A stretch of 64,000 nt of DNA from Oerskovia douganii (GTDB lineage: Bacteria; Actinomycetota; Actinomycetes; Actinomycetales; Cellulomonadaceae). The notes under the pieces were generated by a model, which was given only the letters and a program-made list of their open reading frames with translations, made no database searches and was not told the origin of the DNA. Positions 2,206 through 19,874 of this stretch are shown here, piece after piece. The stretch covers positions 266,806 to 330,805 of the forward strand of contig NZ_JACSPN010000001.1 in the NCBI RefSeq assembly GCF_015142735.1. Reading direction: 5' to 3'. The number at the start of each line of letters is the position of its first letter. Within the stretch, counting starts at the first letter, position 1. The position numbers and the translations under genes are program-made.

Positions 2206-3159
2206 GTGCCCGCCCGTACCACCAAGCTCGCGATCGTCGGCGCAGGTTCCGTCGGATCGACCCTCGCCTACGCGGCGCTCATGCGCGGAGCCGCTCACAC
2301 CGTGAGCCTCCTCGACATCAACCGGACCAAGGTCGAGGCCGAGGTCCTCGACCTCCAGCACGGCATCCAGTTCATGCCGATGGCCAAGGTCGAGGGCTCC
2401 GACGACGTCGCGGTGTGCGCCGACGCCGACGTCGTCGTGTTCACCGCCGGCGCCAAGCAGAAGCCCGGTCAGACGCGCCTCGACCTCGCGGAGGCCACGA
2501 TCTCGCTCGTCCGCAAGATCCTGCCCGGGCTCGTCGAGGTCGCGCCCAACGCGATCTACATCATGGTCACGAACCCCGTCGACGTGGTGACGTACGCCGC
2601 GCTCAAGTACTCGGGGCTCCCGCCCAACCAGCTGTTCGGGAGCGGCACCGTCCTGGACTCGTCCAGGCTGCGGTTCCTCGTGGCGCAGCACTGCGGCGTC
2701 GCGGTGCAGAACGTCCACGCCTACATCGCCGGCGAGCACGGCGACAGCGAGATCCCGCTGTGGAGCTCGGCGACGATCAGCGGCGTCCCGCTGCTCGACT
2801 GGAAGGGCCTGCAGGGCCGTGGGCCCCTCACGGCCGAGGTGCGCGAGGACATCGCGCACGAGGTCGTGCAGTCCGCCTACCGCATCATCGAGGGCAAGGG
2901 TGCGACCAACTACGCGGTCGCTCTGGCCGCGACCCGGATCATCGAGGCGATCCTCGACGACGAGCACCGGGTCCTGCCCGTGTCGTCGCTGCTCGAGGAC
3001 TTCCACGGGATCAACGACGTCTGCCTGTCCGTCCCCTCGCTCCTCGAGCGACGCGGCTGCGGGGAGCGCATCGAGGTGCCGCTGTCCGACCACGAGCTCG
3101 CGGGCCTGCGGGCGTCCGCCGACTCGGTCCGTGCGGTGGCCAAGAGCTTCGGTCTGTAG
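2206..3159 (+). CDS. ldh: L-lactate dehydrogenase
   Basis: NAD-dependent L-lactate dehydrogenase of 317 residues, interconverting pyruvate and L-lactate in the cytoplasm. The Rossmann motif GAGSVGS starts at residue 12, the substrate arginine region is in the QKPGQTR loop, and the catalytic histidine is H178 in GEHGDSEIP, all typical of LDH rather than malate dehydrogenase. The GTG start follows an AGGAGG at 2196-2201; an in-frame open stretch upstream overlaps the helicase gene in another frame and is not coding. A 16-bp hairpin follows the stop and is shared with the convergent lexA gene. In family terms the enzyme regenerates NAD during oxygen limitation. Confidence 0.95.
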   Translation: MPARTTKLAIVGAGSVGSTLAYAALMRGAAHTVSLLDINRTKVEAEVLDLQHGIQFMPMAKVEGSDDVAVCADADVVVFTAGAKQKPGQTRLDLAEATISLVRKILPGLVEVAPNAIYIMVTNPVDVVTYAALKYSGLPPNQLFGSGTVLDSSRLRFLVAQHCGVAVQNVHAYIAGEHGDSEIPLWSSATISGVPLLDWKGLQGRGPLTAEVREDIAHEVVQSAYRIIEGKGATNYAVALAATRIIEAILDDEHRVLPVSSLLEDFHGINDVCLSVPSLLERRGCGERIEVPLSDHELAGLRASADSVRAVAKSFGL

Positions 3160-3264: not shown

Positions 3265-4014
3265 TCAGAGGCTGCGCAGCACCGAGACCACGCGACCGAG
3301 GATCTGTGCGTCGTCCCCGGAGATGGGTCGGTAGGCCGCGTTGTGCGGCATGAGCCAGACGTGCTTGTCGATGCGCTTGAAGGTCTTGACGGTCGCCTCG
3401 CCGTCGATCATCGCGGCGACGATCTCCCCGTTCTCGGCCACGGGCTGACGGCGCACGACGACCCAGTCCCCGTCGCAGATCGCGGCGTCGATCATGGAGT
3501 CGCCGGCCACGCGGAGCAGGAAGAGCTCGCCGTCGCCCACGAGCTGTCGGGGCAGCGGGAACACGTCCTCGACGACCTGCTCGGCAAGGATGGGGCCACC
3601 GGCGGCGATACGGCCCACGACGGGCACGTAGGACGGCGTGGGCCGCTCGGGCGAGTCCTCGGAGGCGTCGACGCCCTCGACGCGCGGGAAGGCGCTGCCG
3701 GGGAGCGGTGCGATGCCCCTGCTGTCGTCGTTGTGGACGACCTCGATCGCACGGGGCCGGTTGGGGTCACGGCGCAGGTAGCCCTTGCGCTCGAGCGTCG
3801 TGAGCTGGTGCTTGACGCTCGACGGGCTCGTGAGGCCCACCGCCTCGCCGATCTCGCGCATGCTCGGCGGGTAGCCCCGCTGCTCGACCGATGCGCGGAT
3901 CGTCTCGAGCACGAGGCGTTGGCGCGGCGTCAGGCCGTCCCCGCCGGTCGTGCCGTCGGGGAGCTCGTGCACCTTCGCGAGCCCGCCCGTGGTGTCGGCC
4001 ACCCGTCCCGCCAT
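3265..4014 (-). CDS. lexA: SOS repressor LexA
   Basis: Transcriptional repressor of the DNA-damage response, 249 residues. The N-terminal winged helix (about 26-90) ends in a recognition region SPSSVKHQL. The C-terminal S24 peptidase fold has the self-cleavage bond Ala138-Gly139 in GRIAAGG, the nucleophile S173 (GDSM) and the general base K210 (ATVKTF). The ATG at 4014 is preferred over upstream starts because GGCGGAG precedes it and homologous LexA begins just ahead of the winged helix. The gene diverges from the LysM gene at 4330. A promoter with TTGATT (4199-4204) and TACTCT (4176-4181) spaced 17 bases carries an SOS box over its -35, so autoregulation is expected. Confidence 0.95.
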
Positions 4015-4175
4015 CGTCGTCTCCGCCCTGCTCGGCCGTCTCGGTCCCTGTCCTGCGGAGAGGCACCGCGAGCGGCGCCGGCTCCTGCGCGCGGTCGACC
4101 GTGATCCCGTCCGCCCGCGGTGCGGGACGTCCCGCTCGGCGAGCGCCCGACATATCGGACGACCCGTACCCGACC

Positions 4176-4204
4176 AGAGTAGGTCACGCGGCGACACGAA
4201 TCAA
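4176..4204 (-). promoter_or_regulatory. lexA promoter
   Basis: On the minus strand, TTGATT (4199-4204), a 17-base spacer and TACTCT (4176-4181). The SOS box at 4202-4215 overlaps the -35, a classic repression geometry. Confidence 0.65.
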
Positions 4205-4215
4205 ACACATGTTCG
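4202..4215. promoter_or_regulatory. SOS box A (LexA operator)
   Basis: CAAAC-ACAT-GTTCG matches the Gram-positive/actinobacterial LexA operator CGAAC-N4-GTTCG with one mismatch. It overlaps the lexA -35. Confidence 0.75.
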
Positions 4216-4268
4216 AGCATGTCTCGACATCTGCCGTCTTCGGTGATAGAAATCGTACAGATGTTCGA

Positions 4269-4282
4269 CGAACAGGTGTTCG
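4269..4282. promoter_or_regulatory. SOS box B (LexA operator)
   Basis: CGAAC-AGGT-GTTCG is a perfect LexA operator 48 bases before the LysM gene. The same 14 bases recur before the HEPN-dinB pair at 17666-17679. Confidence 0.9.
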
Positions 4283-4329
4283 AACCGACCGGGGAAGGCG
4301 GTTCGGGCACCGCGGACCGAGGAGCGGCG

Positions 4330-16493: not shown

Positions 16494-17600
16494 TCAGCCG
16501 TCCTCCCGCCCGACTGCGTGGCGACCGTCCGCCGCAGCACCTCGGGGCGCGGCGGCGTCGGGCAGGGACGACGAGGCGGGGTCCGCGGCCGCAGCGGGTG
16601 GCGGCGGGTCCTCGATCGGCGCCGCGGTCCCGGCGAACCGCCGGGCCTCCTGTCCCGTGAGCAGGGTGGCCGGGACCGGCAGGCTGCGCAGCGTGCGTGC
16701 GAGCGTCGCTCCGTCCAGGTCGAGCCCGGCCTCGGCGGGGTCGTCGCCCGCGCCGGGCGAGGCGGCGGACGGGCGACGGACCGCGACCAGCACCAGGTTC
16801 CCGTAGCGGCGCCCCTTGAGCTGCCCGGGCTCGGCGATCAGGCCGACGTCGCCCCAGGCGTCCCGGTCGCGGGGCCCGTCGTCGGTGAGCGCGGCGACCG
16901 CCGTCGCGAGCTCCGCGCGGACCAGGGCCAGCGGCGGTCGGTCGGCGCAGTTCGCGAGGTACACCCCACCGGGCCGCAGGACCCGCAGGACGTCGCCCAC
17001 GAAGCCCGCCGTCGTGACGTGCCCGGGGGTCGTGTCGCCCGCGAAGACGTCACGGACGACGACGTCGACGCTCGCGTCCGGCAGCGTGGCGAGCTCTGCC
17101 CGGGCGTCTCCCGCACGGAGCCGCAGGCGGGGGGCGCGGGGGAGCGAGAACCACTCGCGCACCCGCGCGACGAGGTCGGCGTCCAGGTCCACCGCGAGCT
17201 GGCGGGAGTCCGGTCGTTCGTGCTCGACGTACCGGGCGAGGGTGCAGCCCGCGGCCCCCAGGTGCACGACCCGCAACGGTCCGGGGGGAAGCGCCGCGAG
17301 CACCGCTGCCATCTGCTGCATGTACTCGAACGTCAGCAGCCCCGGGTCCGCCAGGTCGAGGTGCGAGCTCGGCACCCCGTTGACGAGGAGGGTGACGCCT
17401 GTGCTGCCGTCCGGGTCGGGGACCAGGCGGGCGGTGCCGGTCGAGGTGCGGACCTCCTCGGTCGGCAGGTCCCGGGTGGTCCCGGCCCCCTGCTGCCGGG
17501 CCCCGGTGCGTCCCCGCCGAGCGGGCGGCGTCGGCTCTGTGGGTGGCGAGGAGGATGCTGAGGAACGACGCGGAGCGCGTCGGGTGGTCTTGCGGCCCAT
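16494..17600 (-). CDS. Spermidine synthase-like SAM-fold protein
   Basis: 368 residues. The central part (about 60-275) is a class I methyltransferase/spermidine synthase fold: VVHLGAAGCTLARYV (motif I, about 110-124), AVDLDADLV with the acidic ribose-binding end, AGDARAEL and VVVRDVFAG. In true spermidine synthases the last motif is D-x-x-D; here DVFAGD is close but not identical, so polyamine synthesis is unproven. The N-terminus is basic and disordered and the C-terminal 60 residues rich in A and P. ATG 17600 has TACGGT (minus, 17607-17612) six bases upstream, a leaderless start. Confidence 0.75.
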   Translation of the reverse strand: MGRKTTRRAPRRSSASSSPPTEPTPPARRGRTGARQQGAGTTRDLPTEEVRTSTGTARLVPDPDGSTGVTLLVNGVPSSHLDLADPGLLTFEYMQQMAAVLAALPPGPLRVVHLGAAGCTLARYVEHERPDSRQLAVDLDADLVARVREWFSLPRAPRLRLRAGDARAELATLPDASVDVVVRDVFAGDTTPGHVTTAGFVGDVLRVLRPGGVYLANCADRPPLALVRAELATAVAALTDDGPRDRDAWGDVGLIAEPGQLKGRRYGNLVLVAVRRPSAASPGAGDDPAEAGLDLDGATLARTLRSLPVPATLLTGQEARRFAGTAAPIEDPPPPAAAADPASSSLPDAAAPRGAAADGRHAVGREDG

Positions 17601-17655: not shown

Positions 17656-17684
17656 TTGACAGGATCGAACAGGTGTTCGATCAT
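17656..17684 (+). promoter_or_regulatory. SOS promoter of the HEPN-dinB pair
   Basis: TTGACA (17656-17661), 17-base spacer, GATCAT (17679-17684). The perfect 16-base palindrome TCGAACAGGTGTTCGA (17665-17680), a LexA operator, fills the spacer. Confidence 0.85.
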
Positions 17685-17703
17685 GGATGACGGAGGTGTT
17701 CGT

Positions 17704-18150
17704 ATGACCACGCAGCACAGAGCGCTCCCCGGTGCGGGGATCGTCGCCCCGGACGTCGCCCGCCTCCTGGCCCGCGCGGACGCCGAGCTCGTCGCGGCCG
17801 GTCTCACGGCTGATCCTGCGGAGCGCTTCGTGCACTCGCACCTCGGTGCGCTGCGTGCCGCGGCGGCCGTGGTGGCTCTCCGGGGCAGACCGCCGGCGCG
17901 CTCCCGGGCGCGCTCGGTCTGGGACATGCTCGCTCTCGTCGAGCCAGGCCTGGCCCCCTGGTCGCTGTACTTCGCGGGCGGGGCCCGGACCCGTGCGGCG
18001 GTCGACGCCGGGAGGTTCGACGCGGTCGAGGCGCGGCGGGCGGACGAGATCATGGCCTGCGCGGAGGACTTCCGCGACGAGGTCGCCATGCTCGTCGACC
18101 CCGACGTCGGGTTCGTCCGCCACCCGTCGCTGCAGGTCGTGGCCTCGTGA
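17704..18150 (+). CDS. SAV_6107-type HEPN domain protein, SOS-controlled
   Basis: 148-residue all-helical protein matching the SAV_6107 HEPN family found beside dinB in actinobacteria. HEPN domains are often RNases or nucleotide-binding helpers. An R-x4-H string (RFVHSH, about residues 41-46) fits the HEPN RNase pattern, but lies nearer the N-terminus than usual, so catalytic use is doubtful. Other conserved-looking parts are RSVWDMLALVEP and the final VGFVRHPSLQV. ATG 17704 follows CGGAGG. A LexA operator lies within its promoter and dinB follows 22 bases after its stop, so both should be induced by DNA damage. Confidence 0.75.
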   Translation: MTTQHRALPGAGIVAPDVARLLARADAELVAAGLTADPAERFVHSHLGALRAAAAVVALRGRPPARSRARSVWDMLALVEPGLAPWSLYFAGGARTRAAVDAGRFDAVEARRADEIMACAEDFRDEVAMLVDPDVGFVRHPSLQVVAS

Positions 18151-18172
18151 CCCGTCTCGTGCCGGGTCTGCC

Positions 18173-19432
18173 GTGAGCCGGGGGCCCCGGGCCGTCCTGA
18201 CCCGCCGGGACTGGGGGGACGACGAGACGGGCTGCTCGATCCTGCACGTCGACATGGACGCCTTCTTCGCCTCGGTCGAGCTCACCCGCCGACCGGAGCT
18301 CGTGGGGCGCCCCGTCATCGTCGGCGGTGCCGAGCGCAGCGTCGTCCTCGCGGCCACGTACGAGGCCCGCGCCTTCGGCGTCCACTCGGCCATGCCCATG
18401 GCGCTCGCCCGACGCCTGTGCCCCCAGGCCGTCGTCGTGCCCCCGGACCACGGGGCGTACCAGGACGCGTCGCGGGCGGTCATGGAGATCGTCCGCGAGA
18501 TCACGGCCCTGGTCGAGCAGATCAGCATCGACGAGGCCTTCCTCGACGTGAGCGGCGCACGTCGCAGGCTCGGTGCGCCGACGCTCATCGCGCAGGCCCT
18601 GCGGGCGAGGGTCCGGGCGGAGGTCGGCATCACGTGCTCGGTGGGGATCGCCTCGACCAAGTTCGTCGCCAAGCTCGCGTCGACGCACGCCAAGCCGGAC
18701 GGCATGCTGCTGATCCCCGCGGCGGCGACCGTCGACTTCCTGCGCACGCTGCCCGTGGGTGCGTTGTGGGGCGTCGGGGAACGGACGGAGAAGGTCCTCG
18801 CCGGCTGGGGCATCTCGACCGTCGCCGAGCTCGCCGACACCGACGTCGCGACGTTGCAGGCCGCGGTCGGGAAGGCTGCCGGCGCACACCTCCACGACCT
18901 CGCCTGGGGGAGGGACCCGCGTCCCGTCGACCCGGGACGGACCGAGCAGAGCATCGGTGCCGAGACGACGTTCGCGCAGGACCTCTACGACCCTGCCGTC
19001 ATCGGGTCGGCGCTGCTGGGTCTCGCGGACCGCTGTGCGACGCGGCTGCGCAGCCAGTCGTTCGTCGCCCGCACCGTCTCGGTCAAGGTCCGGACCTCGG
19101 ACTTCCGGACGCTCACCAGGTCGCGGACGCTCGCGTCGCCGACCGACGTCGCGCAGGAGATCCACGCCGTGGCTCTCGAGCTCGTCCGCGGGGTGGACCG
19201 GCGCGGTCTGCCGGTCCGGCTCGTCGGGGTGCGCGCGGAGGGCCTCGAGCGCCGGGAGGACGCGGTCGAGCAGCCGACCCTCGAGGAGTCGGTCCGGGAG
19301 GGCGCGGGTGCCCAGAGAGCCGCGGAGCGCACCCTGGACCAGATCCGGGGCCGTTTCGGGATGAATTCGATCGGACCCGCGTCCACCCGTCGACGCTCGA
19401 CTACCACCGGGGCAGATGTAGAACTATCCTGA
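18173..19432 (+). CDS. dinB: DNA polymerase IV (Y family)
   Basis: Translesion polymerase of 419 residues. Catalytic acidic motifs are HVDMDAFFASVE (about 24-35) and SIDEAFLDVS (about 120), with the steric-gate aromatic in the first. The thumb helix-hairpin-helix (GVGERTEKVLAGWGI) and little-finger domain follow. The C-terminus ends in a basic S/T/R-rich tail without a clear clamp-binding motif. GTG 18173 is the first good start ahead of the catalytic motif; Shine-Dalgarno is weak, suggesting coupling to the HEPN gene 22 bases upstream. SOS control comes from the operator at 17665-17680. Likely source of damage-induced mutagenesis. Confidence 0.92.
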   Translation: MSRGPRAVLTRRDWGDDETGCSILHVDMDAFFASVELTRRPELVGRPVIVGGAERSVVLAATYEARAFGVHSAMPMALARRLCPQAVVVPPDHGAYQDASRAVMEIVREITALVEQISIDEAFLDVSGARRRLGAPTLIAQALRARVRAEVGITCSVGIASTKFVAKLASTHAKPDGMLLIPAAATVDFLRTLPVGALWGVGERTEKVLAGWGISTVAELADTDVATLQAAVGKAAGAHLHDLAWGRDPRPVDPGRTEQSIGAETTFAQDLYDPAVIGSALLGLADRCATRLRSQSFVARTVSVKVRTSDFRTLTRSRTLASPTDVAQEIHAVALELVRGVDRRGLPVRLVGVRAEGLERREDAVEQPTLEESVREGAGAQRAAERTLDQIRGRFGMNSIGPASTRRRSTTTGADVELS

Positions 19433-19469
19433 GGGGGACACATTCAACCGCTGAGAACCGGGGGTGCCC

Positions 19470-19874
19470 ATGCCTCTGTCAGAGTACGAGCAGCGCGTAC
19501 TGGAACAGATGGAAAGAGCGCTGACCTCGGATGATCCGCGGTTGGCGACGACGCTTCAGTCGAGCCCCCGCAAGTCCGGGTTGCGCTACGTCGCGGCAGG
19601 GATCGGAGTGGTCGGCGGCCTGCTGCTGCTGGTCCTCGGCGCCGCGACCGCCTCGCCCGTCCTGGGGGTCATCGGGTTCGTCGTGATGTTCGCCGGGGTC
19701 GCCTTCGCGTTCTCCGCGCCCCGCAAGTCCGCGACCGGACCGGTGGGTGTGGTGGACCAGGACGGCAAGGTGACTCCGCCCAGGGCTCCCGCCAAGCGCG
19801 GTGCGCCTCGTCAGGGCTTCATCAACCGACTGGAAGAGCGGTGGGACCGTCGGCGCGAGCAGGGCGGTCGCTGA
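19470..19874 (+). CDS. DUF3040 membrane protein
   Basis: 134 residues, the DUF3040 family that sits upstream of the dcw cluster in many actinobacteria. It begins MPLSEYEQRVLEQMERAL, then has two adjacent membrane segments (about 45-85) and a basic cytoplasmic tail ending RRREQGGR. ATG 19470 matches the family's N-terminus; GTG 19464 is two codons longer. Its 3' end overlaps the convergent transglutaminase gene by 53 bases. Function unknown. Confidence 0.85.
   Translation: MPLSEYEQRVLEQMERALTSDDPRLATTLQSSPRKSGLRYVAAGIGVVGGLLLLVLGAATASPVLGVIGFVVMFAGVAFAFSAPRKSATGPVGVVDQDGKVTPPRAPAKRGAPRQGFINRLEERWDRRREQGGR

Follow-up and report, generated by a model that had tools for sequence, protein, structure and literature searches.

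What does a small HEPN protein do between an SOS promoter and the gene of a translesion polymerase? This question is raised by a locus of Oerskovia douganii contained in the 64,000 nucleotides that we analysed (hereafter the window), where TTGACA, a LexA palindrome, a HEPN gene and dinB follow one another (Table 1). An earlier note on this DNA had described an SOS operon pairing the two genes, and had proposed that the HEPN protein might cut RNA, inhibit DinB or escort it.

Promoter and genes of the HEPN-dinB locus

The LexA palindrome is perfect and lies between the -35 and -10 elements, as the earlier note had stated. It covers the greater part of the spacer and shares 2 bases with the -10. 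It is present as a single exact copy in the 64-kb window, where 4 LexA-like sites with at most 1 mismatch were found vs. 0.16 expected. The promoter is the only one of this pattern in the region, and the value for the same pattern in shuffled sequence was 0.0. The gap of 22 nt reported between HEPN and dinB is exact (18150 to 18173). Position 17656, previously given as the start, falls on the TTG that opens the -35 hexamer; the HEPN gene begins with ATG at 17704, behind GGAGGTG. The lexA gene is carried by the same window (3265-4283 region, minus strand, start near 4197), and three LexA-like boxes (11/12; 4201, 4253 and 4268) are located between it and a divergent LysM-type gene.

Table 1. Features of the HEPN-dinB locus and its flanks (positions in the window)
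Feature	Position	Strand	Support
Divergent methyltransferase-fold (spermidine-synthase-like) gene, flank	16494..17600	-	weak PF13649/PF08241
Sigma-70-like promoter, TTGACA-17 nt-GATCAT	17656..17684	+	10/12 match
Perfect LexA (SOS) palindrome TCGAACAGGTGTTCGA in the -35/-10 spacer	17665..17680	.	12/12
Putative ribosome-binding site GGAGGTG	17693..17699	+	reading of the sequence
HEPN_SAV_6107 gene, ATG start, 148 aa	17704..18150	+	PF18726
dinB, GTG start, 419 aa, Y-family DNA polymerase IV	18173..19432	+	PF00817, PF11799, NF003015
DUF3040 gene, downstream neighbour kept in most lineages	19464..19874	+	PF11239 E=1.6e-26

The assignment of the small protein to the HEPN proteins was borne out by its sequence and by its fold. 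It matches PF18726 (HEPN_SAV_6107) with 97.3 bits (gathering cut-off 27.2; E=7.9e-28), and a PDB sequence search gave no significant relative. The AF2 model (pLDDT 89.3, pTM 0.81) has the HEPN helical-bundle fold: its best match is AF_0298 (2hsb; Z 15.2), and it also matches human sacsin HEPN (3o10; Z 13.4), TT1696 (1ufb; Z 13.2) and the HepT toxins (Z about 10), the HEPN domains being ranked above unrelated helical bundles in the structure-comparison list.

The dinB product scores 393.6 bits as Pol IV PRK03858 (cut-off 367) and exceeds the cut-off of NF003015, with both the IMS catalytic and the C-terminal domain. Its C-terminus presents a RecA-NT-like stretch, AERTLDQIRGRFGMNSIGPAS, and the C-termini of the DinBs adjoining HEPN are clamp-like and RecA-NT-like. 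The divergent methyltransferase-fold flank is kept in the loci of the same family and in several loci lacking HEPN.

Distribution, operon arrangements and predicted LexA control

PF18726 was found in 198 of the 296 sampled genomes of the class, in single copy in nearly all carriers, with 186 out of 201 genomes of family f10 and 80 out of 81 of the genus taken as Corynebacterium. Outside the class, matches are rare and weak. Within f10, none of the 14 sampled genomes of genus g18 (probably Mycobacterium) carries HEPN, whereas the other genera are nearly all positive. The viral contigs searched contained no relative, and the locus keeps a stable place next to the division cluster, so that a phage or mobile origin was rejected. 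This vertical, single-copy and syntenic inheritance, together with frequent loss in several families, would suit a passenger, i.e. a gene long resident in a chromosomal region that changes little, lying behind an SOS promoter with no role in the damage response. We consider this highly improbable, as HEPN persists where the polymerases have gone and then still has a LexA box of its own, and as R51 and W73, invariant across the family alignment, point to selection.

To describe the arrangements, we mapped 80 loci fetched by coordinates and 80 named loci fetched by sequence, with approximate gene starts. The most complete of the common arrangements runs from a LexA box through DUF6504, HEPN, dnaE2, SAM methyltransferase and dinB to DUF3040. 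In raw counts, uncorrected for relatedness and including a few duplicates, the order DUF6504-HEPN-dnaE2-(methyltransferase)-dinB-DUF3040 was observed in 43 loci, HEPN-methyltransferase-dinB in 8 and HEPN-dinB in 15 (window and relatives included), while the methyltransferase is missing from the cassette in 10. In four other loci (L087, L110, L112 and L204, the latter from Actinoplanes utahensis), the box and HEPN precede imuA'-imuB-dnaE2-methyltransferase, followed by dinB in the first three. The constant gene across arrangements is HEPN. From this comparison, the DUF6504-HEPN-dnaE2-methyltransferase-dinB order looks ancestral, and the variety of HEPN-headed arrangements indicates that the HEPN-dinB pairing of the window is the remnant of a more extensive SOS cassette. 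A dnaE2 gene and an ImuB-C-like gene, absent from the window locus, are present in relatives.

The genome of the window has a canonical imuA'-imuB-dnaE2 cluster elsewhere (L121, from position 3132; G000 contig C17), with its own perfect box and no HEPN beside it. As assembled, the dnaE2 of this cluster is broken by a few N and by a stretch of low complexity. Within the order, families with DUF6504-HEPN-dnaE2 lack ImuB and families with HEPN-dinB possess it. A replacement of ImuA by HEPN was rejected, since relatives of the window have both genes and imuA' itself can follow HEPN. DUF6504, which shows a weak sequence likeness to ImuB-C, is probably a standalone ImuB-C; a Pfam scan of the ImuB of the window genome did not detect DUF6504.

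Several loci display particular features. In L067, a second perfect LexA box (6570, oriented coordinates) is found directly before dnaE2, about 3 kb downstream of HEPN, which suggests a split SOS operon. L125 carries three perfect LexA boxes with an exact spacing of 44 bp (2110-2213; G000 C69:28110-28211), apparently between the 3' ends of convergent nuclease/phosphatase-type and GMC-oxidoreductase-type ORFs. In family f8 (L049-L055, L075), a highly diverged HEPN lies directly before dinB without a LexA box, and the regulation of the pair seems to have changed. The methyltransferase of the operon (L094 4626-5378 and equivalents) is closest to CmoM, with about 100 bits vs. a cut-off of 366. It remains with HEPN in Streptomyces after the loss of the polymerases, and its substrate may hint at the role of HEPN.

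The pairing of HEPN and dinB does recur in actinobacteria, as previously claimed, but dinB is no specific partner: HEPN is also associated with dnaE2, with imuA'-imuB-dnaE2, or stands alone. These other partners, and the relatives keeping the box and dinB without HEPN, led us to reject a specific HEPN-DinB pair as a general rule. The dinB-keeping families f5, f42, f45 and f52 lack HEPN, as do f1 G360 and f47 G351, where box and dinB are kept. Given these cases and the absence from g18, HEPN can be neither an essential nor an obligatory subunit of DinB.

LexA control was then considered over the same loci. When the Streptomyces-type HEPN-methyltransferase-DUF3040 arrangement is excluded, 89 of 93 loci show a box with 11-12 matches out of 12 in the 1.6 kb that precede HEPN; over all loci, the proportion is 92/157, vs. 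3/595 random windows of the same DNA. The TTGACA-N3/4-LexA box layout is conserved in the promoters of the window's own family (f1) and of f47. The SOS-type promoter of the earlier note is thus upheld, by the position of the palindrome in the promoter and by the box conserved upstream of HEPN in relatives. In Corynebacterium, a box of at least 10/12 lies within 250 bp in 22 of 30 loci, vs. 1 of 593 control windows. In C. glutamicum, cg2381 belongs to the LexA regulon and is induced by ciprofloxacin (M=3.86; PMC5055667). This gene is three gene numbers from mraZ (cg2378) and, by synteny, would be the HEPN gene. On the sequences compared, HEPN is predicted to be repressed by LexA and induced by damage, and HEPN_SAV_6107 to be a conserved DNA-damage-response gene across actinobacteria, usually heading an operon of error-prone polymerases.

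The box is also present where no polymerase adjoins HEPN. HEPN-only loci keeping it (L095, L105, L109, L114, L115, L156 from Kutzneria and L189 from Umezawaea) have perfect or near-perfect boxes and no polymerase nearby. In Corynebacterium, HEPN adjoins DUF3040 and a local dinB is absent; in Streptomyces, the arrangement is HEPN-methyltransferase-DUF3040 with a degenerate LexA site. More generally, the usual position of HEPN is beside DUF3040 and the division cluster. The loci with HEPN and a box but no polymerase, this usual place and the HEPN-DUF3040 association of Corynebacterium would fit an SOS effector acting apart from lesion bypass, e.g. a checkpoint on division or envelope genes, the operon being shared for co-regulation only. 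However, HEPN is found most often beside dnaE2, dinB and DUF6504, and in other lineages the polymerase association has formed anew with imuA'-imuB. We regard such an effector as a serious but rather unlikely explanation.

Position and conservation of the R-x4-H string

The R-x4-H string on which the RNase idea was based exists in the window protein (R41-F-V-H-S-H46). The first position is Arg in 94 of the 104 non-redundant members (90%) and the second is His in 95 (91%), and such conservation indicates that the string is no chance occurrence. The earlier note had proposed to check this conservation by alignment. Two other residues, R51 and W73, show no variation and are more informative than the pair, which breaks down in several clades under SOS control. 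H46 is replaced by Tyr in all 30 Corynebacterium loci, where R41 is mostly gone; R41 is lost in five of six f47 loci (to T, S or V); and H46 is lost in six of eight f4 loci (to Q). In f47 and f4, the LexA boxes are kept.

Moreover, the string lies inside helix 2 (38-60) of the AF2 model, whereas HEPN toxins have their catalytic RX4HXY in the loop between alpha4 and alpha5 (PMC11586414). The equivalent loop of the model (102-109) contains no His, the catalytic-site position having been compared by secondary structure and aligned ranges rather than by superposed coordinates. The window protein thus lacks the hallmark of catalytic HEPN RNases, R-x4-6-H in the loop that precedes the last helix. 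A profile alignment of the PF18726 family with HepT gave no usable match. In the survey of Anantharaman 2013, the SAV_6107 family is also given as one in which the motif is not conserved (PMC3710099).

Could HEPN still be an SOS-induced RNase, with R41 and H46 as the active site, cutting RNA and slowing growth during repair under the sole restraint of LexA? The conserved pair, the fold shared with HEPN toxins and the likeness of the operon methyltransferase to the tRNA methyltransferase CmoM, although far below the cut-off, would be in line with it. The place of the string, the losses in clades under SOS control and the absence of an antitoxin or MNT neighbour argue against it: no nucleotidyltransferase antitoxin gene lies beside the window HEPN, whose neighbours are the methyltransferase-fold gene, dinB and DUF3040. 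With the string off the catalytic loop and broken in SOS-controlled clades, the RNase toxin reading is weakened to the point of being improbable, and RNA cutting by HEPN_SAV_6107 is probably absent.

Possible role beside damage polymerases and known systems

The fold, the operon, the conservation of the LexA box and the loss of the proposed catalytic pair come from direct comparison. Our best reading, which we hold with even confidence, is that HEPN is a non-catalytic, LexA-induced accessory of translesion polymerases or mutasomes. As to its molecular role, an escort or regulator of damage polymerases is preferred over an RNase; we infer a partner and an effect on mutagenesis. More tentatively, HEPN_SAV_6107 may be an unrecognised mutasome subunit or gatekeeper, i.e. 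a non-catalytic polymerase handler common to the ImuA'-ImuB-DnaE2 type and to the split type (DUF6504/ImuB-C, DnaE2B and DinB).

During normal growth, LexA bound to the palindrome between -35 and -10 would block transcription; after DNA damage, its cleavage would allow HEPN to be made together with the translesion polymerases. The ancestral operon would have been DUF6504-HEPN-dnaE2-methyltransferase-dinB. In other lineages HEPN heads imuA'-imuB-dnaE2-methyltransferase(-dinB), and in the family of the window the locus would have shrunk to HEPN-dinB, leaving imuA'-imuB-dnaE2 separate with its own box. The protein itself would act on the translesion machinery as a small, non-catalytic bundle of helices, either as an adaptor or as a regulator. 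Other HEPN proteins are dimeric, and this one probably is too. The face with R51 and W73 may bind a polymerase or RecA/ssDNA, and HEPN may gate the access of mutagenic polymerases. RecA and the clamp are likely in the same assembly, given the C-termini of the adjoining DinBs. The HEPN-only loci without a local polymerase speak against this accessory role, as does Streptomyces, where HEPN stays with the methyltransferase behind a degenerate box, and operon membership alone is no proof of membership in a complex.

The absence of a described function, stated in the earlier note, was supported: our full-text searches on HEPN, SAV_6107 and DUF6504 found no paper that connects this HEPN family with SOS translesion polymerases, although subscription literature, including the original paper on the LexA regulon of C. 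glutamicum, could still mention such a link. HEPN also goes unmentioned in the two surveys devoted to these polymerases. A small SOS gene heading operons throughout a class, missed by recent surveys, offers a ready genetic handle, and its deletion would directly test whether translesion polymerases need a helper or a brake. If true, this reading would place a HEPN domain in DNA damage tolerance instead of among RNase toxins. The topic is relevant to tuberculosis (PMC10421592) and to genome evolution in actinobacteria.

Finally, the locus can be compared with known systems. By gathering score and fold, the window protein is a member of HEPN_SAV_6107 (PF18726; HEPN-M SAV_6107 of Anantharaman et al. 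2013, PMC3710099), whose table entry names neither an operon nor a partner nor a function; our analysis adds the SOS/mutasome context. With the HEPN-MNT (HepT-MntA) toxin-antitoxin it shares the helical-bundle fold, but here there is no MNT neighbour and no RX4HXY in the Y-loop. The DUF6504-HEPN-dnaE2-methyltransferase-dinB cassette appears to be the same module as the DnaE2B-[ImuB-C]-PolY-RecA and DnaE2B-[ImuB-C] modules of Actinobacteria (Timinskas and Venclovas group, 2026, PMC12926913), in whose text HEPN and DUF6504 have 0 hits. DnaE2B was reported there to occur without ImuA/ImuB, and the absence of ImuB from our DUF6504-HEPN-dnaE2 families fits this report. In addition, HEPN is found with genes of the ImuA'-ImuB type and in isolation. 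The ImuA'-ImuB-DnaE2 mutasome is likewise controlled by LexA and HEPN heads its cassette in the four loci cited above, but the cluster of the window genome has no adjoining HEPN. Lastly, the small subunits UmuD', YqjX and ImuB-C suggest an analogous role for HEPN: a small LexA-controlled protein is similarly encoded just before the gene of a Y-family polymerase, although their fold is unrelated to HEPN.
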